NCBI GenBank assembly: GCA_002282015.1
Contig: NCIJ01000007.1
Location: forward strand, 1-51,289
Direction of reading: 5' to 3'
DNA length: 51,289 bases
DNA from: Sulfuricurvum sp. 17-40-25
Lineage (GTDB): Bacteria; Campylobacterota; Campylobacteria; Campylobacterales; Sulfurimonadaceae
Shown: positions 24,826-34,654 of the stretch, piece by piece
How the letters are laid out: each line of letters starts with the position of its first letter
How positions within the stretch are numbered: position 1 is the first letter of the stretch
Notes under the pieces: model-generated
Database searches by the model: none
What the model was told of the DNA's origin: nothing
What the model saw: only the letters and a program-made list of their open reading frames with translations
Made by a program: the position numbers and the translations under genes

Positions 24826-25947
24826 TTGTCTGATTTGACACTTATTCTTCTCGCAGCGGGTAATTCTAGTCGTTTCAAAGTCCCCGTTAAAAAGCAATGG
24901 CTACGAATTGGTCATGATCCGCTTTGGTTGTTTGTTACCAATCGTATCACCAAAATGGTCTCTTTCGCGAACGTTATCGTCGTTGCTCATCCTGAGGAAC
25001 TGCCATTTATGCGATCAATGTGTGATATTACCCTTGTAGCTGGTGGATCAACACGCCAAGACTCTTTACGTAATGCGCTTTCACAAGTAGATACCCCTTA
25101 TGTGCTTGTGAGTGATATTGCCAGAGCCTGTATTGATTCTACTGTATTAACACGTCTTATTACTGCCCGTGAGCTAGCTGATTGTATCGTACCGACATTA
25201 GGTGTTAATGACACTATAGTGTATGGAGATGACACCATCGTACGTGAATCCATTAAACGGATACAAACTCCGCAACTGTCACGCACCACTATTCTACGCT
25301 TAGCCCTGGACACTACCCAAGAGTATACCGACGAAAGCAGTGCTATTGTTGCACATGGCGGAACACGTCATTATGTAGAAGGTGACATTCGTGCCGATAA
25401 AATCACTCGAATCGATGATCTTAGAGCCCTTGAGTGTTTAGGGTCCCCAGCGGCAATGACCTTTACAGGTAATGGATTTGACGTGCACCCTTTTGAAGAA
25501 GGTAAACAGATGGTTTTGGGAGGCGTTGAGATTGAATCTTCTTATGGATTCAAAGCCCACAGTGATGGTGATGTTGCCATACACGCTCTTATCGATGCCT
25601 TGTTGGGTGCTGCATGTATGGGAGACATTGGAATGCTCTTTCCTGATACTGATGAGGACTATAAAAACATAGACTCTAAAGTGCTGTTAACGCGGTGTGT
25701 TGAAAAAATTCATGCTTTTGGATTTGTGATTGCACATGCGGATATCACTGTTATCGCGCAAGTGCCAAAAATAGGCCCCTATAAAGAGCAAATGCGTAAA
25801 ACCCTGGCACCATTGATGGGACTTAGCCCCTCACGGTTAAATATAAAAGCGACCACAACAGAACACTTAGGGTTCATTGGACGCAAAGAAGGAGTGGGCG
25901 TAATGGCTACCGCTTCGTTACACTATTTTGATTGGATAAACGGATGA
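24826..25947 (+). CDS. ispDF: Bifunctional IspD/IspF, MEP isoprenoid pathway
   Basis: 373 residues joining 4-diphosphocytidyl-2-C-methylerythritol synthase (1-205, with LLAAGNSSRF as nucleotide-binding loop) to 2-C-methylerythritol-2,4-cyclodiphosphate synthase (210-370, with the metal-binding DVHPF, AHSDGDVAIHAL and GDIGMLFPDTD). The fusion is typical of Campylobacterota and alphaproteobacteria. The start is a TTG with AGGA 5-6 bases upstream. The stop overlaps the ATG of the regulator that follows (ATGA), the same neighbours as HP1020/HP1021 in Helicobacter pylori. Confidence 0.95.
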   Translation: MSDLTLILLAAGNSSRFKVPVKKQWLRIGHDPLWLFVTNRITKMVSFANVIVVAHPEELPFMRSMCDITLVAGGSTRQDSLRNALSQVDTPYVLVSDIARACIDSTVLTRLITARELADCIVPTLGVNDTIVYGDDTIVRESIKRIQTPQLSRTTILRLALDTTQEYTDESSAIVAHGGTRHYVEGDIRADKITRIDDLRALECLGSPAAMTFTGNGFDVHPFEEGKQMVLGGVEIESSYGFKAHSDGDVAIHALIDALLGAACMGDIGMLFPDTDEDYKNIDSKVLLTRCVEKIHAFGFVIAHADITVIAQVPKIGPYKEQMRKTLAPLMGLSPSRLNIKATTTEHLGFIGRKEGVGVMATASLHYFDWING

Positions 25948-26831
25948 ACGTATTAATAGTAGAAAATGAGATTTATCTCGCGCAAAGCATCGCTTCCAAG
26001 CTCAGCGACTTAAGCCATAACTGTGATATTAGCAGTTCAACCAAAGAAGCGCTCAAAGGGGTTCCCTATGATGTCGTTTTACTCTCAACCAACATCAGTG
26101 GACACGATATTTATCCTGTCATTGAAGCATACAAAGATGCCGTTGTTATCTTAATGGTGTCGTATGTCAGCAATGATACGGTTTCCAAACCACTAGCTGC
26201 TGGTGCAAAAGACTATATTCTCAAACCATTTATGATTGAAGAACTCATCCGTAAAATCCAACATTATCAAAACCATGAACGACTTCGTCGTCAAAATCAA
26301 ACCCATGAACGTTATTTAGCTCACCTATTTAACAGCATCAAAATTGAGGAAGATTTTGACAAGACAGAACTTCCTGTTATGATTTGCAGTGGGTATCAAA
26401 AATATGCCGATGCTTTTGCTTTTCGTTATGCTCAGCACAAAAACAAAACACTTCAATTTGTTTCTTTGAGTTCTAGCAAAGCACTACAAGATATTGCATC
26501 ATTACCCATTCACCATATTCTTTATATTACTGATTTTCAAAATTTCAAGAAAAGTGACCATAAACCTTTATTTGAGCTTTTGGAAAAACGTCAATGTATC
26601 ATTTCTACTACCGACTATATTGATCATGCTCCATTTCGTATGATTGAAGTTAAAAGCGAAAATCATCTATTTGACCAAGGTGAAATTTTACCGATCGAAG
26701 AATACGTCAAATACATCATGCTTAATTTCCAAAGCCGTTTTCCGGATACGGAACTGTCAAAAAAACTAGGTATTTCACGAAAAAGTTTATGGGAGAAAAG
26801 AAAAAAATATGGCATCGTCAAGAAAAAATAG
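25944..26831 (+). CDS. Atypical orphan response regulator, HP1021-like
   Basis: 295 residues from the ATG that overlaps the ispDF stop. A receiver domain (1-115) keeps the lysine (YILKPF) but lacks the phosphorylatable Asp: the segment VVLLSTNISG has Ser48 where Asp is expected, and the acidic pair is ENE. The C-terminus is an NtrC/Fis-type helix-turn-helix (ELSKKLGISRKSLWEKRKKYGI). Length, the Asp-to-Ser change and the ispDF neighbour match H. pylori HP1021 and C. jejuni Cj1608, phosphorylation-independent regulators linked to redox response and replication initiation. Cysteines at 27 and in MICSGY and RQCIIS could be redox-sensitive. Confidence 0.88.
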   Translation: MNVLIVENEIYLAQSIASKLSDLSHNCDISSSTKEALKGVPYDVVLLSTNISGHDIYPVIEAYKDAVVILMVSYVSNDTVSKPLAAGAKDYILKPFMIEELIRKIQHYQNHERLRRQNQTHERYLAHLFNSIKIEEDFDKTELPVMICSGYQKYADAFAFRYAQHKNKTLQFVSLSSSKALQDIASLPIHHILYITDFQNFKKSDHKPLFELLEKRQCIISTTDYIDHAPFRMIEVKSENHLFDQGEILPIEEYVKYIMLNFQSRFPDTELSKKLGISRKSLWEKRKKYGIVKKK

Positions 26832-27999
26832 AGCACTATATATTGATCAAGAAGCACTTTCTGCTCTTGCATTACTCAAATCGGGTATCCTATCTCCCGT
26901 AAAAGAGCTTATGAATGAGCAACAATGCACGCAAGTACTAAACAGTGGCATGTTTGATGGAAGTACATTCCCCTTTCCTCTCATTCTCTCCCCTAATGGT
27001 AAGAGTAATGAGGCTATTTTAATAAGTACACAAAAAGGAGAAGTCCTTGATCTTGTCTGCGATCAAGAAGTTGTAGGTGAAATTTGTGTAAACGAAGTTT
27101 TTGCTATTGACCCCGCCGAACGTTTACGTCAAATATACGGAACGGAAGATCTCTCTCATCCAGGTGTAAATGCCACCTTTAAACGACTTGGAAAGTATGC
27201 TATCTGCGGTGATTATACAATTGATACCACCTCAATATCCACTATACGCCAAACCATTAAAAATGCTCAGGATCAAATCGGAGCAAAACACACCACTGCT
27301 ATTTTTATGGCGGCTAATCCTCTTCACCGTGCACACGAGCGTCTTATTCGCCAAAGCTTGGAGAGAACCGATCTCATTGTTATCTTTTTATTAAAGCCCT
27401 ATAATAACGCTAATCTAAGTTATGATCTTCGTCATGATGTTCTTCAGTTTTTTGTTAATAATTATCTCCCCTTTAGCCGAGTTATTATTGTTCCATTGGA
27501 AAACAGCTATATTTTTGCCGGAAGCAATGAAGTGATTTTGGATGCCATCGTGGCAAAAAATTATGGATGTGACCGTCTCATGATTGGACAAAATCATGCT
27601 GGTATAGGAATGTATTACGATCGTAATGCTAATAAATCAGTTATTGATCGAATGAGGGGAATTGACATTGAAGTGTCTATGTCCAGTGAATACGTCTACT
27701 GCAATATGTGTAAAACACTCGTCAGTATTCAAACCTGCCCTCACGGACATCATCACCATATTTCCTACCATTCTGAATCGATACTTGAACTCATGAAACA
27801 AGGGCTCCTACCACCAGCGGTGTTGGTACGTAAAGAAATATCTTCACTGATTGTTTCTTCTTTGTATCCGAATCGATTTAAAAATTTGGCTAAACTTTAT
27901 TATGACATTATGCCGGTTAACGGTTTGCTCGAAGAACACACTGAAAAAGACTTTTATATTGAGCTTATGAAACTTTATCAAACCACATCACTTACCTAA
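26809..27999 (+). CDS. Divergent ATP-sulfurylase homologue with altered active site
   Basis: 396 residues with the overall fold pattern of sulfate adenylyltransferase: a PUA-like N-terminal domain, then a nucleotidyltransferase domain. The HxxH motif (NPLHRAHE) and the zinc-ligand region (YCNMC ... TCPHGHHHH) are kept. The residues that bind sulfate and ATP are not: the usual QTRN reads MAAN, GRDHAG reads GQNHAG, and the ISGTxxR segment reads ISYHSES. Function is therefore uncertain: a nucleotidyltransferase for another substrate or a non-catalytic protein. The start overlaps the regulator gene by 23 bases, with GGGAG upstream. Synteny ispDF-regulator-sat-pgpA resembles Cj1607-Cj1610 as I recall it. 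Confidence 0.8.
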   Translation: MASSRKNRALYIDQEALSALALLKSGILSPVKELMNEQQCTQVLNSGMFDGSTFPFPLILSPNGKSNEAILISTQKGEVLDLVCDQEVVGEICVNEVFAIDPAERLRQIYGTEDLSHPGVNATFKRLGKYAICGDYTIDTTSISTIRQTIKNAQDQIGAKHTTAIFMAANPLHRAHERLIRQSLERTDLIVIFLLKPYNNANLSYDLRHDVLQFFVNNYLPFSRVIIVPLENSYIFAGSNEVILDAIVAKNYGCDRLMIGQNHAGIGMYYDRNANKSVIDRMRGIDIEVSMSSEYVYCNMCKTLVSIQTCPHGHHHHISYHSESILELMKQGLLPPAVLVRKEISSLIVSSLYPNRFKNLAKLYYDIMPVNGLLEEHTEKDFYIELMKLYQTTSLT

Positions 28000-28008
28000 G
28001 GTACTCTC

Positions 28009-28518
28009 ATGAAATTAAATTGGTTTTTCCTCACCCTCTTTTACAGTGGGCATTCGCCAAAAGCTCCTGGAACAGTGGGAACACTTGTTTCTCTCCCCTT
28101 AGGTGTGGGCATATTAATGTTATTGGGCCCACAGACTTTATTTTTACTAACTTTGCTTATCACCCTCGTAGCTATTAAAAGTATTAATCGTTATGAGGCT
28201 CAAAGCGGGATTCATGACAATCAAAAAATTGTTATCGATGAGCTTGCAGGAATGTGGTTTGCCCTGAGTATTGCACCTGGTATTATGTTTACGTGGGGTG
28301 ATGTATCCACATTTAGTAATGGAATTGCCGTACAAATCATACTCAGCTTTATTTTCTTTCGTATGTATGACATTAAAAAGCCCTCTATTATTGGCCGTAT
28401 TGATCGTAATGTCAGCGGTGGATGGGGAGTGATGGGGGATGATATTGTTGCTGGATTTGCTGCGGGTATCAGTGCTGCCCTTGTCTGGCAGCTGATTCTT
28501 AAACTATTAGCATTTTGA
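28009..28518 (+). CDS. pgpA: Phosphatidylglycerophosphatase A
   Basis: Membrane phosphatase that removes phosphate from phosphatidylglycerophosphate to give phosphatidylglycerol. The 169 residues show GHSPKAPGTVGTLVSLPLG at the N-terminus, IVIDELAGMWFA (the conserved DE-GM core) and RMYDIKKPSIIGRIDRNVSGGWGVMGDDIVAG, the signature of the PgpA family, with about four membrane helices. It starts 9 bases after the sulfurylase-like gene and closes the ispDF operon. A 7-bp hairpin overlaps its stop. Confidence 0.95.
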   Translation: MKLNWFFLTLFYSGHSPKAPGTVGTLVSLPLGVGILMLLGPQTLFLLTLLITLVAIKSINRYEAQSGIHDNQKIVIDELAGMWFALSIAPGIMFTWGDVSTFSNGIAVQIILSFIFFRMYDIKKPSIIGRIDRNVSGGWGVMGDDIVAGFAAGISAALVWQLILKLLAF

Positions 28519-28535
28519 TGTATAAATTTACATCA
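28516..28535. terminator. Hairpin shared by convergent stops
   Basis: TGATGTA, 6-base loop, TACATCA: a perfect 7-bp stem that contains the pgpA TGA in its left arm and overlaps the TAA of the convergent gene at 28528. Candidate bidirectional terminator. Confidence 0.4.
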
Positions 28536-29019
28536 TCATTGGATCATCGGTCGGTTCAATCTCTTCATAGTCATTGACTATTTGATCTAATATTTTCTGT
28601 GTCTTTTTAATCTTTACGATATTTTCATCAAAAATAGATTTTGATGCAGGAAATGCGTCTCCAAGTTCCGTATAGATCAAAATACGTCCGCCAAAGTGAC
28701 GATTAAACTCATCAAATGCACCTCTTAGATATGCTTTACGCGTTGTGTGTCTAAATAATGCTTGTAACATTCTTTTACGTTCTTTGATTGGAATCGACTC
28801 ATCAATCGCTTCAGCCACACGCTTGATGTCCAAACGAGAAAAATAAACACCGCTTTGGAACGGTGAGAGAAGTTTATCGGTTAACTCATCTACAAATCCA
28901 GGTACTGGCTCATTATCTGGGTCATTTTCAGCAGTCGTATCACAATCTCCTGTATCACATTTATCCCGTACAAATTGATCAAACTCTGCTTTTAAATCAC
29001 TTAGTTCTGCTTTATTCAT
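28528..29019 (-). CDS. Small acidic protein of unknown function, last gene of the molybdoenzyme operon
   Basis: 163 residues that I do not recognise. The N-terminus is acidic with a CDTGDC pair (Cys21, Cys26). The middle (about 55-125) is helical and basic (IKRVAEAIDESIPIKERKRMLQALFRHTTRK), followed by FDEFNRHFGGRILIYTEL and a helical, acidic tail ending in DDPMMM. No membrane segment or signal peptide is seen, so it should be cytoplasmic. AGGAG precedes the ATG by 6 bases, and the gene starts one base after the preceding stop, so co-translation with the upstream genes is expected. A role in assembly or electron transfer of the molybdoenzyme is a guess from position only. Confidence 0.7.
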   Translation of the reverse strand: MNKAELSDLKAEFDQFVRDKCDTGDCDTTAENDPDNEPVPGFVDELTDKLLSPFQSGVYFSRLDIKRVAEAIDESIPIKERKRMLQALFRHTTRKAYLRGAFDEFNRHFGGRILIYTELGDAFPASKSIFDENIVKIKKTQKILDQIVNDYEEIEPTDDPMMM

Positions 29020-29020
29020 T

Positions 29021-29458
29021 CTATGCTCCTGTTGTTAATTCGTAAAAATAGCGTGTCATGGAATTGAGGGCTATGTCGTCTTGAAACTCATCGCATTGCG
29101 CAAACTTTTCCAGTGCAGATGGCATAATAAGTTCTCCGTAGAGTTGTCCATCTACGATACGAATAAAATCACTGTATCCAGCCTCTTGAGATGCTTCAGA
29201 AGCATGATCTAATAAGCTAAAGGCCTCTTCTTGATATTCCATTGAGATTACCGCACCGGTTAATTTTGAGCTTCGCATTTGTGAAATTGTAAAGGTAACA
29301 TCATCCGGGCGTATATTCATGGGAATTGCCATTGCATTGACATTATTTCCCTTGAACAATTTATTAACAATAGCACAAAAGCGACTACTATGTGCATTTT
29401 CGGCGATATACCCATAAAGTGCTGTTTCTGTTGTTATCGAATTATCATCGTTCATCAT
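29021..29458 (-). CDS. Stand-alone domain resembling the substrate-binding half of shikimate dehydrogenase
   Basis: 145 residues starting at ATG-ATG just after the iron-sulfur gene stop; longer upstream readings in the same frame overlap that gene and should be disregarded. The chain aligns by eye with the N-terminal domain of AroE: YGYIAENAHSSRF (for GxxxxHSxSP), AIPMNIRPDDVTFTISQMRSS (for LP-V-PEDL), LTGAVISMEYQEEAF (for GANVTIPYKEAV) and EASQEAGYSDFIRIVDGQLYG (for AQxIGAVNTIV-DGxLYG). The catalytic Lys is Gln76, the catalytic Asp is absent, and no NADP-binding Rossmann domain follows. Probably a non-enzymatic binding protein; its ligand is unknown. Confidence 0.65.
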   Translation of the reverse strand: MMNDDNSITTETALYGYIAENAHSSRFCAIVNKLFKGNNVNAMAIPMNIRPDDVTFTISQMRSSKLTGAVISMEYQEEAFSLLDHASEASQEAGYSDFIRIVDGQLYGELIMPSALEKFAQCDEFQDDIALNSMTRYFYELTTGA

Positions 29459-29459
29459 T

Positions 29460-30554
29460 TTATAACCCCCAAAGCTCGCGCGCTTCTTCCTCTTCGAGGC
29501 GACAACGGCGGCATATTTTTTCTCCTGCGACGGAACTGAACAAGCCATCGCATTCATCACATCGGCGTACTGCAAATCTTGCAAGGTTTTGAACACTAGG
29601 GACATACCACTCTTTGAGATTGTACGACGTCGAAAGAGTAATAGCATTTGGCTCACATACGTCATGACATAAATGACATTTGACACATAAAAAAGGATCG
29701 AAATCTATTTTAGAGTTACGCATGTCCGATGTCAGTGCTCCTGTAGGACATACGCGATAACACATTTGACACGCTGTACATAATTCTTCATCTAACAGTT
29801 TTTGAGACGTAAACGTAATTTTATCGCTTTGCACCACATGAAATTCACTAGGTACTTCAAAACGCTTTAATGCGGTAAAAAATAGTTTACGTCGATCCGT
29901 TATCTTTTTAGTCCGTAGCGCTTGAGTATGAGTACTATTCGTCGTATATTGTACAAATTCATCCGTCGTACGCTGTATCTCTTTTTCAAAATTACTGCGT
30001 GCTTTCCCTATTCCACGTAAGTGAAAGTTTTTGAAAAAATCTCGGCGATCTGCTTTTTCTTCAGGTACTTTCAAATCTATATACGCAATATCTTTTGTTT
30101 GAATCGTATAAGGTGATTGTATTGCTTCTAATAAATAATTAGAATTATCAATAGTCTTCATCATAACCGATAAAGTTTTTTCTCCTATCTCACATTGACC
30201 ACAATGCCCAATATCCAGAATAACACCTTCTTTCATTTGAGCAAAGGCAATTAATTGTTCGCTGCTTAATGCAGCGATACAAGGCACATTCTTTTGACAA
30301 GAGACAAGATTCTCTTCATCAGAGACAAATGAAAAGAAAAAATCAGTTGGATTAAAATCATCAAGTTGCAATGCTTCTGTAGGACACACAGCAACACATC
30401 CCGCACATCCAACACATTGTGATTGATTGATGGATGGAAGTCGCCCAGTAATGCTAATAGCACCCACAGGACATACATCAGAACAATGAGTGCAAATAGA
30501 GTTGACACTTAAAGCTCTAACACATGAGCTAGGAGAGAGATTTAAAAGGCTCAT
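29460..30554 (-). CDS. Multi-cluster iron-sulfur protein with C-terminal zinc ribbon
   Basis: 364 residues, cytoplasmic. It has four [4Fe-4S] motifs in two pairs: Cys11/21/24/28 and Cys47/50/53/57, then Cys259/262/265/269 and Cys290/293/296/300 (the last followed by Glu instead of Pro). Between them a domain carries Cys86, Cys92, Cys118 and Cys121 (SCQKNVPC and GHCGQC). A zinc-ribbon-like CxxC-x12-CxxC (332-351) ends the protein. The likely role is electron supply to, or cluster delivery for, the molybdoenzyme, but this is inference. Its ATG overlaps the TorD-like stop by 4 bases and the next gene starts one base after its own stop. Confidence 0.82.
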   Translation of the reverse strand: MSLLNLSPSSCVRALSVNSICTHCSDVCPVGAISITGRLPSINQSQCVGCAGCVAVCPTEALQLDDFNPTDFFFSFVSDEENLVSCQKNVPCIAALSSEQLIAFAQMKEGVILDIGHCGQCEIGEKTLSVMMKTIDNSNYLLEAIQSPYTIQTKDIAYIDLKVPEEKADRRDFFKNFHLRGIGKARSNFEKEIQRTTDEFVQYTTNSTHTQALRTKKITDRRKLFFTALKRFEVPSEFHVVQSDKITFTSQKLLDEELCTACQMCYRVCPTGALTSDMRNSKIDFDPFLCVKCHLCHDVCEPNAITLSTSYNLKEWYVPSVQNLARFAVRRCDECDGLFSSVAGEKICRRCRLEEEEARELWGL

Positions 30555-31174
30555 GAAACTTTAGGAACAACTGCACTTAACATTTCATTATCAGAAAGTA
30601 TAAATTCTAATGCCATTTCCGCTGTATCGTAATATAAAGGTGTACGTGATTCATACTTCATATTAATCAGATACATAGGTGCCCATTTTAAAAGATGGGT
30701 ATTTAAAAAACGATGCTGTACTGCCAATAATTCAGTTACAGATTCATGATCACTTTCTTCAATTGCTTTTATCTGAGCTTGACATAAGTGATGCATAAAC
30801 TCTAACTCAACACCAATATGATCCGAGGAAACAACACGTGCTACAGCGTAATCAACAATAAAGTCATAAGCACTGTAGATATCTGTTACAGGATTCGCAC
30901 CACCTGTTTCTATCATCTGATCAGCACGTGTATAAAAAGTCTCATAAGGGACTAAATGCAATAGTGAAAGGTTTGTAAAATCGGGATTCAAATACTCTTC
31001 TAAAAGCTTTTGATTTGATAGTGTGGTACGTAGTTCCCATTCATTCCAATGAGGTAAAAACTCTAAAACTGTTTTGTCTTCCATAAGTGTATTCAAAATT
31101 TCAACGTCAAGCTCTTGAAGCAAAATCCGAGAAAGAAGGGCATAAATATTACTACGTGCGATAATTTCATCCAT
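30551..31174 (-). CDS. TorD/DmsD-family molybdoenzyme chaperone
   Basis: 207 residues, helical and cytoplasmic. Family marks are LLSRILLQE near the start, VPYETFYTR, HIGVELEFMHHLC and LNTHLLKWAPM, the pattern of the TorD-type chaperones that bind the twin-arginine signal and assist cofactor insertion. The obvious client is the 1130-residue catalytic subunit encoded just upstream. A TACAAT at 31201-31206 could give this gene and the three after it a promoter of their own in addition to readthrough. Confidence 0.85.
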   Translation of the reverse strand: MDEIIARSNIYALLSRILLQELDVEILNTLMEDKTVLEFLPHWNEWELRTTLSNQKLLEEYLNPDFTNLSLLHLVPYETFYTRADQMIETGGANPVTDIYSAYDFIVDYAVARVVSSDHIGVELEFMHHLCQAQIKAIEESDHESVTELLAVQHRFLNTHLLKWAPMYLINMKYESRTPLYYDTAEMALEFILSDNEMLSAVVPKVS

Positions 31175-31200
31175 TAATCAGACCTTTAAATAGTGATGGG

Positions 31201-31206
31201 ATTGTA
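31201..31206 (-). promoter_or_regulatory. -10 box ahead of the accessory genes
   Basis: The minus strand reads TTGCTACAATCCC about 28 bases before the TorD-like ATG, in the only sizeable gap (87 bases) inside the molybdoenzyme operon. Confidence 0.4.
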
Positions 31207-31261
31207 GCAACTCTGACTAAAAAGTACATGAGAGAAGAAGATTAGAAAAAGGTATCAAGTC

Positions 31262-34200
31262 CTAAGACTTGATAGTAACGTCATATGCAGTTGAGTCAAG
31301 AGATACCCAAGGACGTTTAATATGGCGAGGGCGACGAATGGTTGAATTTGAATCCAAACCACGAGACAGCTGATCTCTCCATGCTTGATATACTTTAAAG
31401 TTATTATCATAATTTACAAAAATGTCACCAATCTTGTCACCCGGTTGAGCAGGCTCTAAGATAACTTTATGGTGCCAACAGTGCATACCTGAAATTGGAT
31501 CCGGATGAGGAGCTGCTACAGCATTTTGCCATGAACCACTCAATCCATCCCACCAAATGTTCTCAGAGTCACGGTTGTATTCTGCAAAACGCTCAGCTTT
31601 AAAGCCTTTGATTCCCTCAACATATTTGAGTTTACCGATTTTTCCATCCATTTGAATCTCAGCAACTGGAACACCAAAACTATTGATACCTGTAGTACCA
31701 CTATAGTCATCAATTTTAGTTTGTGCTCCTGCTTTACCGATATTAGCAGGTGATTCTTTGAGGAACTCTTTGTTATTCAAATCTCGTGGCGCAGTACTAG
31801 GATCCACTTTACCATCAGTTACACCATTTGGTACCGTTACATGGTTCGTTAATTTCCAACGTCCACCATGATGTGAACATGCTAATGTACCAGGCATAAC
31901 AGCCTCAGTAGGTACTGCCATTGCGACAAAGTAACCACTGTCTAGACCAGACACCGTATCCACAATCTTCACACGCATTGCATCACCACGCTTAAATCCA
32001 AGACGCTGTGCATCTTTTGTATAGATCCAAATCGGGTCATGGTTCTGTGAAATTTCCATCAAATGCTTAGAATTCGCAGAACGTGTATGAATATTATACG
32101 GTAAACGGAATACTGTATTTAGAGCAAATGAGTTTTCCTCTTTCATATACATGTGGTTAACATGTGAAACAAGGTGCACCATCTCTACTTTTTCTTTATC
32201 ATTACGCGGATAGAACGGCATTGCATACTCTCTCCACTTCCAGTCCGTAGCCCACTGTGTAAAGAACTCAAGTTTACGAGTAAGGGTTTCAAATCCTTCC
32301 ATCTTTTTACCGTCAATCTCAATACCAATAGTTGTATCTTTTCCGTGATGATCTTTGGCTTTAATAACACCAGCCGTACCAACACTCATAGAACCCGCAT
32401 CAAATTTGTGTCCGTGTGAAATAACTTCACCATCTTCAAATTTAAGCTCACGTTCCATAGCATTATAGATTTTATCTTCTTCCATCCATGCACCATGATC
32501 ACGTAAATAGGCATAGACTGGAAATTCTTCCTTACTGTAACGCTCATCATTAGTTGCTGTCTCTTTGAGTTTTGGCAAGTTATCACCAAATGCAGCATCG
32601 TACCATTCAGGAATCGTGACAGGTTTACCTGGATGACGTTTAGATTCCCACATTTTTTTGATACCTAGACTTCCGTCAGGATCGATGTAGTTAACACATA
32701 AATCAAAGAAGAACTCATTCTCTTCCCAAACCTCACCAAGACCCGCCTTAACGTGAGCCTCAAGTGTAGCACGGTTAGGATTTTTAGCTTTCCAGCCTGA
32801 TTTTTCCAATGCAACACGTAAAACCGGCTGACGAAATGAAGTCCATCTTGCAGGGAATGTTGCCTCAGAGTGTTGGTCATGACGCTCTCCGGCAAGTCCA
32901 ACTGGAAGTACATAGTCCATATACCAGTTTGTCTCTGACCATACTGGAGAGAGATTCATAGTGAGTTCCATCTTTGTTTCGTCTTTTAGAACTTCTATCC
33001 AACGGAAACCATCCGGATTAATCCAGACAGGATTGTACATACGTGGAATATAAACAGAAAGTTTACTTGGAACTTTCAATCCACGGTCATTCCATTTTTT
33101 CTGCCATGCGGTATCTGTTAATAGGTGTGGCAATAAATACGACATCTCATACGTTGACAAAGGCCACTCAGGAGGCCATGTTAGCTCATTCCAAACTTTG
33201 ACCTTTGGTACGTCTGCACCGCCTGCACCCTGTCCAAGTGTAGAGCTTCCACCCTTCCCAGATACAGAAATAACGTGCCAGTGGTGGAAGAATGTACCAC
33301 CCTCAGTACCGATAGCACCGCGAAGACCAATACAAAAATATGCCGCACGTCCGCCCATCCATGCACCACGGTTACCCGCAGCAGCAGCACGCCAGATATA
33401 CGTAGAAATTGCATCACCAGCCCAAATAAACATCTCGTAGAGTTTTTCAAGTTTATAAGCAGGGACATGTGTCTCTTTAACCGCATATTCAAGCGTATAA
33501 GGAGCATACATATCTTTTAAAAGAGCCATATAGTCATCAAATGAATTACCAGTCGGAGCTTTAGTAATCTGACCTTTTTCAAGCATAAAGTCAAGATGTT
33601 TGTGATCGTTCATCAAGGTTTCCCAGTTGAACCATTTTTTCACAAACTTCTTATCCGTCATATTTTCACTTAAAATACGATTTGCAAGATAAAGATAAAT
33701 AGCAGCTTCCGTACCAGGCCATGCAGCGATCCAAAGATCTGACATACCTGCAGAATTCGACATACGAGGGTCCATAACGACCATCTTCGCACCTTTTTTA
33801 CGTGCGTCAGCAATAAAACTAGCTGATTGCTGAAAGTAGTGTCCCGCATCCGCAGCATGAGACGAATTCAAGAAAATCAGCTTAGCATTAGCCCAGTCAG
33901 GACTTGAACGGTCATCATTTGCAGTCCAAATAGACGGTGTACGACCATTAGATGAACAAATGTTGGTGTGTGAGTTGTAGGAGTCAAGTCCCATTGTTTC
34001 CCAAACCTGAGGAACAAACCCGTTTTCATTTGGACGTCCGACATGGTACATCACTGATTTACGAGAAAGTTCATCCCCGTTACGTAGCGTATCACCCATC
34101 TTTTTACCGATGGTCGTCATCGCTTCATCCCATGTTGTACGAATCCATTTTCCCTCACCACGCTTAGAACCTGGTGCACGCTTAAGTGGGAAAGGAATAC

Positions 34201-34654
34201 GATCAGGATCATACATCTGTGACTGAACAGCATACCCTTTTGCACAGTTACGTCCACGTGAGGCAGGGTGCAATGGGTTACCCATGTATTTTTTAACGGT
34301 GAATGTCTTTTTATCGATCCATGCAGTTAATCCACACGACGCTTCACAGTTTGAACATGCAGTAGGAACCAGCATATAATCATTGACCATGATACCATCA
34401 GGGTTCTCTTCACTTTGTACGCCGTGACGGTTTATACCGCCACGTTTCCAGTCATTACCATCAAGCTCTTGGAAACCTTCCCACTGATCCAATGGTGGAT
34501 AAAATGATAGGCTGTCAGGAGTATTGGTAAATTTGCTGTTCTCTACAGACTCAGCAGCTGCATCAGTCGAGAATACGCCTTTTGCAATCGCAGCACCAGC
34601 AACGGTCATTGCGGCACCTTTTAAAAATGTTCTTCTACTTTCTAAATACATCAT
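31262..34654 (-). CDS. Molybdopterin oxidoreductase catalytic subunit (DMSO reductase superfamily), exported by Tat
   Basis: 1130 residues. A Tat signal (RRTFLKG, Arg7-Arg8, then a hydrophobic stretch and AAA) sends it folded to the periplasm. An N-terminal [4Fe-4S] site is Cys100/103/107/137. HTNICSSNGRT puts Cys233 where the molybdenum ligand is expected, pointing to the clade of polysulfide, thiosulfate, tetrathionate and arsenate reductases and sulfite dehydrogenase. The rest carries bis-MGD-binding domains, ending in the C-terminal cap region (TLACSHHGGRW). It is longer than PsrA/PhsA (about 760). Substrate cannot be assigned; with a sulfur-oxidiser-like gene set, an inorganic sulfur compound is the first guess. 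Confidence 0.9.
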   Translation of the reverse strand: MMYLESRRTFLKGAAMTVAGAAIAKGVFSTDAAAESVENSKFTNTPDSLSFYPPLDQWEGFQELDGNDWKRGGINRHGVQSEENPDGIMVNDYMLVPTACSNCEASCGLTAWIDKKTFTVKKYMGNPLHPASRGRNCAKGYAVQSQMYDPDRIPFPLKRAPGSKRGEGKWIRTTWDEAMTTIGKKMGDTLRNGDELSRKSVMYHVGRPNENGFVPQVWETMGLDSYNSHTNICSSNGRTPSIWTANDDRSSPDWANAKLIFLNSSHAADAGHYFQQSASFIADARKKGAKMVVMDPRMSNSAGMSDLWIAAWPGTEAAIYLYLANRILSENMTDKKFVKKWFNWETLMNDHKHLDFMLEKGQITKAPTGNSFDDYMALLKDMYAPYTLEYAVKETHVPAYKLEKLYEMFIWAGDAISTYIWRAAAAGNRGAWMGGRAAYFCIGLRGAIGTEGGTFFHHWHVISVSGKGGSSTLGQGAGGADVPKVKVWNELTWPPEWPLSTYEMSYLLPHLLTDTAWQKKWNDRGLKVPSKLSVYIPRMYNPVWINPDGFRWIEVLKDETKMELTMNLSPVWSETNWYMDYVLPVGLAGERHDQHSEATFPARWTSFRQPVLRVALEKSGWKAKNPNRATLEAHVKAGLGEVWEENEFFFDLCVNYIDPDGSLGIKKMWESKRHPGKPVTIPEWYDAAFGDNLPKLKETATNDERYSKEEFPVYAYLRDHGAWMEEDKIYNAMERELKFEDGEVISHGHKFDAGSMSVGTAGVIKAKDHHGKDTTIGIEIDGKKMEGFETLTRKLEFFTQWATDWKWREYAMPFYPRNDKEKVEMVHLVSHVNHMYMKEENSFALNTVFRLPYNIHTRSANSKHLMEISQNHDPIWIYTKDAQRLGFKRGDAMRVKIVDTVSGLDSGYFVAMAVPTEAVMPGTLACSHHGGRWKLTNHVTVPNGVTDGKVDPSTAPRDLNNKEFLKESPANIGKAGAQTKIDDYSGTTGINSFGVPVAEIQMDGKIGKLKYVEGIKGFKAERFAEYNRDSENIWWDGLSGSWQNAVAAPHPDPISGMHCWHHKVILEPAQPGDKIGDIFVNYDNNFKVYQAWRDQLSRGLDSNSTIRRPRHIKRPWVSLDSTAYDVTIKS

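Follow-up and report, generated by a model that had tools for sequence, protein, structure and literature searches.

The window, i.e. the whole stretch of 51,289 nucleotides analysed here, is a Sulfuricurvum contig from its own genome (G000), which is 99.99% complete and has Sulfuricurvum MAGs with ~90% protein identity as its closest named relatives. A Pfam scan gave the gene order ispDF-cemR-satX-pgpA on the forward strand. The bifunctional isoprenoid gene ispDF (24826..25947; IspD and YgbB matches) is followed by cemR (25932..26831), which encodes an atypical response regulator of the HP1021/Cj1608 (CemR) type as judged by its Response_reg match, its gene order and a C-terminal Fis-type HTH, the match to which is below the Pfam cut-off. 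The open frame starting from ATG 26809 encodes an ATP-sulfurylase-fold paralogue of 396 aa (26809..27999), here given the working name SatX, and pgpA for phosphatidylglycerophosphatase A (28009..28518; PgpA match) lies downstream to it. The start of satX overlaps with the 3' end of cemR by 23 nt (26809..26831), and the two genes are likely to be translationally coupled. The preliminary description of this DNA had placed MAAN, GQNHAG and ISYHSES in the satX frame, with an HP1021-type regulator and pgpA as its neighbours, and both the motifs and the neighbours were borne out. Further downstream, a 221-aa ORF on the reverse strand (29021-29686) has a shikimate-dehydrogenase substrate-binding domain (PF08501) as its sole domain, and its neighbours in the region 28528-34654 encode a polyferredoxin, a nitrate-reductase-delta-type chaperone and a 1130-aa molybdopterin oxidoreductase.

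The N-terminal PUA-like domain of SatX (residues 5-135, 26821..27213; PUA_2, E=8e-18) precedes an ATP-sulfurylase catalytic-type (Rossmann) domain (residues 150-349, 27256..27855; PF01747, E=1.6e-53) and a conserved C-terminal tail (residues 350-396, 27856..27996) with G372 and an invariant F382-Y383. The AlphaFold2 model of the protein (mean pLDDT 81.6) matched best with the Thermus ATP sulfurylase 1v47 (Z 32.4, rmsd 3.0 over 336 residues), and residues 4-357 share the fold of the homomeric Sats 1v47, 8a8d, 1jhd and 4dnx with Z of 29-32. The closest folds after Sat were PPAT (at VIA Z ~14-15), NMNAT and PanC, and weak Pfam matches to Citrate_ly_lig were also seen. SatX scored far below both curated Sat cut-offs of NCBIfam, NF003166 (188.3 vs 387) and TIGR00339 (142.7 vs 322.95). 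The fold, the domain order and the listing of this gene as Sat in the literature (PMC7952632, PMC4584964) would favour a genuine, divergent ATP sulfurylase working in sulfate assimilation as annotated, and the residues expected of such an enzyme were compared across the family.

Two alignments were made, the first with 80 SatX relatives and four canonical Sats from elsewhere in Campylobacterota, and the second with 78 SatX and 8 canonical Sats, for which four Sats from other phyla were added and two SatX with degenerate N-termini were omitted. In yeast ATP sulfurylase, Gln195 and Arg197 bind sulfate, and HxxH and ISGTxxR are the nucleotidyl-transfer signatures. The equivalents of Q195, R197 and D291 (yeast numbering) were kept in all eight canonical Sats, and the sulfate Gln, the sulfate Arg and the GRD Asp were each found in 0/78 SatX. 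In the window protein, MAAN (residues 167-170, 27307..27318) replaces the sulfate-binding QTRN, GQNHAG (residues 260-265, 27586..27603) replaces GRDHAG and ISYHSES (residues 318-324, 27760..27780) replaces ISGTxxR. The position of the GRD Arg is occupied by Q, R, K, E or L, with Arg in 21/78 SatX, and on the tree this position (Arg-290) underwent 16 changes. None of the 78 SatX had the S-x-T pair of ISGTxxR, and four of them had its Arg; the canonical eight keep S, T and R, including the Thermus Sat, which has an S-M-T variant of this segment. Thus, the alignment with Sats and Campylobacterota homologues that had been proposed in the preliminary description found the replacements to hold throughout the family, and the motif changes in the window are therefore not a matter of chance. 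Furthermore, positions 167, 168, 170, 261, 264, 323 and 326 of SatX showed more variation than its median position, and since most catalytic positions vary in this way, the old site is no longer maintained and not merely altered. The HxxH motif had been described as kept, which is true of the window protein (HRAHE, residues 173-177, 27325..27339; both H173 and H176 present) but not of the family: at this first position 65/78 members have H, 10/78 have N and 3/78 have T, and the His was lost in 3 independent events on the tree. The second His (H176) and the following E177 were invariant (78/78).

The family keeps a different set of residues. The zinc knuckle C298-x2-C301-x8-C310-x-H312 (27700..27744), also recognised earlier as a kept zinc site, was invariant in both the first (80/80) and the second (78/78) alignment, and in the latter P311 and G313 were invariant among the SatX as well. 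It leads into a family-specific motif, CPHGxHH-x3-Y (residues 310-320, 27736..27768), with H315 in 78/78, H316 in 76/78 and Y320 in 77/78 members, and the full motif was not found in the 8 canonical Sats. Further held positions are P335-P336, R341 and F382-Y383, the last pair lying in a C-terminal extension that is missing from the canonical Sats compared. A Cys3His zinc knuckle is known from Thermus and archaeal Sats, and SatX keeps the knuckle residues of the zinc-site Sats 1v47 and 8a8d, as known here from sequence. The zinc ligands are partly lost in the canonical Sat of Acaryochloris, and therefore the knuckle is not required by the Sat fold, whereas it is absolute in SatX. As suggested by superfamily geometry, H315, H316 and Y320 may face H176, the loop 316-321 being modelled with a confidence of <50. 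When compared with the homomeric Sats (PF01747; NF003166, TIGR00339), SatX shares the PUA-like and Rossmann domains, the zinc ligands and the second His of HxxH, but it is without QTRN, GRD and ISGTxxR, has a variable first His, carries CPHGxHH-x3-Y and the conserved tail with F382-Y383, and is locked to cemR and pgpA and not to sulfur genes. Within Sulfuricurvum, the dN/dS of satX was ~0.03-0.05, with dS near saturation, and the gene is under strong purifying selection. These features together make it quite likely that the zinc/His site underlies a new, conserved role.

The PUA-like N domain was present in 24/26 SatX members scanned, and the N-terminal variants come from Campylobacter-family genomes. 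SatX of G232 (L079) is without this domain, that of G211 (L082) carries an extended low-complexity stretch at its N-terminus, and in those of G026 (L083) and G222 (L081) the N-terminus is shortened or diverged; all four retain an intact zinc/His core. Since the N domain appears to be dispensable and the core remains intact, the conserved function probably resides in the Rossmann domain, the zinc knuckle and the C-terminal part. A mainly structural, metal-handling or RNA-binding protein that is non-catalytic and unrelated to CemR would agree with the zinc ligands and CPHGxHH being invariant or nearly so and with the wide occurrence of the PUA-like domain; the same domain is, however, missing or diverged in the four variants, and the conserved H176/E177 in the old cleft would be left unexplained, which makes such a role unlikely.

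An enzyme acting on a new substrate is the main rival to be weighed, and the preliminary description had named another nucleotidyltransferase as one form of the new function. In this case, the sulfate pocket would have been opened (Q and R to M and A) for a larger acceptor of nucleotidyl or phosphoryl transfer, and the zinc/His-His/Tyr loop would take over the catalytic part of ISGTxxR. The invariant H176 and E177 would also fit with retained phosphoryl chemistry, the GxNHxG loop is kept in most SatX lineages, and PPAT, NMNAT and PanC as nearest folds after Sat point in the same direction, as do the essentiality calls in Campylobacter jejuni and C. coli and the retention of satX after moving away from cemR (both given below). 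The HxGH nucleotidyltransferases (PPAT/CoaD, NMNAT, PanC and citrate lyase ligase) have the Rossmann core and the second His in common with SatX, and they keep HxGH and ISSTxxR-type signatures; neither signature set is complete across the SatX family, and the ISSTxxR-type motif is missing. The loss of ISGTxxR in 78/78 members and the replacement of the first His in three independent clades that keep the gene weaken the nucleotidyltransferase reading, some of the family f2 genomes have an eroded GxNHxG loop, and we know of no gap at a nucleotidyltransferase step in the phylum that SatX could fill. A new-substrate transferase is thus regarded as possible but rather doubtful.

The genomic context of sulfur metabolism was then considered for the annotated function. 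SatX was the only Sat-like protein of G000, a point in favour of the annotation; the genome-wide search of G000 found no second, canonical Sat, and neither CysN above cut-off nor a PF01507 APS/PAPS reductase domain was present. PF01507 was also not found in five other SatX-bearing genomes (G009, G060, G025, G011 and G061), and two genomes of the same genus (G133 and G217) contain CysN and high-scoring PF01507 proteins besides SatX. The search for AprA gave no signal in any genome, controls included, and hence was uninformative. Relatives that keep QTRN and GRD, which had been named earlier as evidence against a changed function, do exist in the phylum (L084, L086, L087 and L088), but these are canonical Sats encoded by separate genes that keep ISGTxxR and GRDHAG as well. 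They belong to the same superfamily and share the CxxC...CxH zinc site with SatX, with only 26-27% identity, and a canonical Sat and SatX coexist in three genomes. L084 and L086 exceed at least one of the two NCBIfam Sat cut-offs and L088 is slightly below, and in L084 and L086 the canonical sat adjoins an APS-kinase-like gene as judged by sequence motifs. The cassettes of L084 (1000-1497, 1498-2568 and 2572-3537) and L086 (998-1522, 1519-2571 and 2573-3538) consist of Sat, an APS-kinase-like and, also judged by motifs, a pyruvate-kinase-like gene, and may be units for PAPS supply in which the third gene is unusual.

The missing sulfate residues, together with the lack of CysN, APS/PAPS reductase and canonical Sat in the nearly complete G000, suggested that SatX is neofunctionalised and mis-annotated. 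With both sulfate-coordinating residues missing in every aligned member, and with same-genus genomes that have high-scoring PF01507 proteins also carrying CysN, a genuine ATP sulfurylase has become very improbable. The residue comparisons argue strongly that SatX is not a sulfate adenylyltransferase, and it would almost certainly do something other than sulfate activation despite the label 'sulfate adenylyltransferase' in nearly every Campylobacter-related genome. Surveys have recorded 'Sat' in all Sulfurimonas genomes examined, sometimes as the only gene of the pathway, and have called the lone sat conspicuous (PMC4584964, PMC7952632, PMC4674564). Sulfurimonas indica NW8N is among the strains treated in PMC7952632, and its SatX carries MGVN/GRNHAG/CPHGQHHQ; the lone 'Sat' of the other surveyed strains would be SatX as well. 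If true, this would resolve the puzzle of why Sulfurimonas and other Campylobacterota have a solitary 'Sat' but neither AprBA nor the remaining genes of sulfate assimilation. The sulfur-pathway maps that count SatX as the sulfate-activating enzyme in these bacteria are probably wrong, and if SatX is not a sulfurylase, the published reconstructions should drop it.

The SatX query found a match in 239/298 Campylobacterota genomes, a count that includes at least one genome (G122) whose match is a canonical Sat only. In the FastTree phylogeny, all 78 SatX were placed apart from the 8 canonical Sats on a long stem of 1.5 substitutions/site. Judged by tree and alignment, SatX is a single family, a neofunctionalised Sat paralogue carrying the wrong annotation. 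The gene is cleanly missing in several lineages, where an ispDF-cemR-pgpA junction is left (L170-L173 and L175), and satX of L080 (G262, contig 5) seems to be split by a frameshift near residue 107, which could mean either a pseudogene or an assembly error. Such losses and the frameshifted copy would be expected of a relic in decay that persists through its place in an essential operon; the low dN/dS and the residues invariant across the sampled phylum speak against decay so clearly that we give this explanation hardly any weight. The earlier proposal of a new function in place of decay is thus upheld by a near-universal gene under purifying selection that is also called essential by TraDIS in C. 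jejuni and C. coli.

The linkage of satX with cemR was examined as a clue to this function. At nearly all SatX loci, satX has cemR directly upstream and pgpA downstream, and the overlap with cemR is exactly 23 nt in 147/162 measured loci, a set rich in close relatives. Among 13 SatX-less genomes searched, full-length CemR was found in 12, and co-occurrence adds little because CemR is near-universal in the phylum. The remaining one, G007, gave partial receiver-domain matches only and is the sole tested genome of the phylum without SatX and without full-length CemR. The rate of CemR relative to IspDF was 1.30-1.47 in SatX-less lineages against a median of 1.17, an effect that rests on about three independent losses with individual lineages within the SatX-positive range. 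CemR was also faster relative to PgpA, and PgpA did not evolve faster where SatX was lost. The faster evolution of CemR after SatX loss fits with a changed constraint on CemR, and a search for CemR positions conserved only in SatX-positive genomes found no convincing interface. In three genomes satX lies apart from cemR (L038, L044 and L040). It has moved beside a queH-like gene in G134 and G044, where ispDF-cemR-pgpA closed up, and in G249 it stands before pgpA with cemR elsewhere. In L038 and L044, which belong to one family (compared with L235 and L236), satX is divergent from the queH-like gene and is followed by a small lipoprotein-like gene.

In C. jejuni and Arcobacter, energy metabolism is under the control of CemR, which is deletable (Cj1608; PMC11334517), and relatives of CemR have been described as redox-regulated via a Cys (PMC12632262). 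TraDIS classified Cj1609, the C. jejuni gene at the satX position, as essential in C. jejuni and C. coli; in the two further species of that study it was core without being essential (PMC10077673). The transposon used in that work carried a promoter and a putative terminator (PMC10077673), and hence the essentiality of Cj1609 may reflect polarity on pgpA. Unless this is so, an essential Cj1609 next to a deletable cemR implies that SatX does more than serve CemR. In aerotolerant strains of C. coli, a change 'sat A290V' has been reported (PMC5366326).

The near-universal adjacency, the exact overlap and the CemR rate shift count, indirectly, for a link of SatX with CemR, and the essentiality of Cj1609 with a deletable cemR and the relocation of satX in three genomes count against a CemR-only role. 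The ligand-sensing partner of the regulator suggested in the preliminary description thus has indirect support from the overlap and the CemR rates and is weakened by the essentiality and relocations. In the favoured explanation, the old active-site cleft would have been remodelled around the zinc/His/Tyr site, and SatX would be a ligand-, metal- or redox-responsive (pseudo-enzyme) partner that is produced together with CemR and may feed energy or redox state into the CemR circuit rather than transferring an adenylyl group. Taken as a whole, i.e. a neofunctionalised Sat paralogue that does not activate sulfate and acts as a zinc/His-site partner made with CemR, this explanation is plausible though short of probable. 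The CemR-linked sensor or partner role specifically is put forward tentatively, as the favoured reading with the new transferase next. Similarly, that an ex-sulfurylase became, once and early in Campylobacterota, an undescribed zinc/His sensor or enzyme coupled to CemR and needed by C. jejuni and C. coli to grow is a tentative proposal. A near-universal gene called essential in these two species is likely to be translationally coupled to the main energy regulator of the phylum, and its invariant zinc/His/Tyr residues provide a direct list of mutants.

For SatX outside the phylum, a contig scan covered the best 80 of 523 confirmed matches. The plasmid records contained one SatX, from Sulfurovum mangrovi, and all other records, among them a Phaeobacter match (L223), were <33% identical; the four of these that were aligned (L224-L227) are canonical Sats. 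In the Sulfurovum mangrovi record (L222, NZ_CP087125.1), ispDF-cemR-satX-pgpA ends a linear 395-kb 'plasmid', possibly a chromosome fragment, and the annotated satX CDS stops ~47 codons before the end of the tblastn match.
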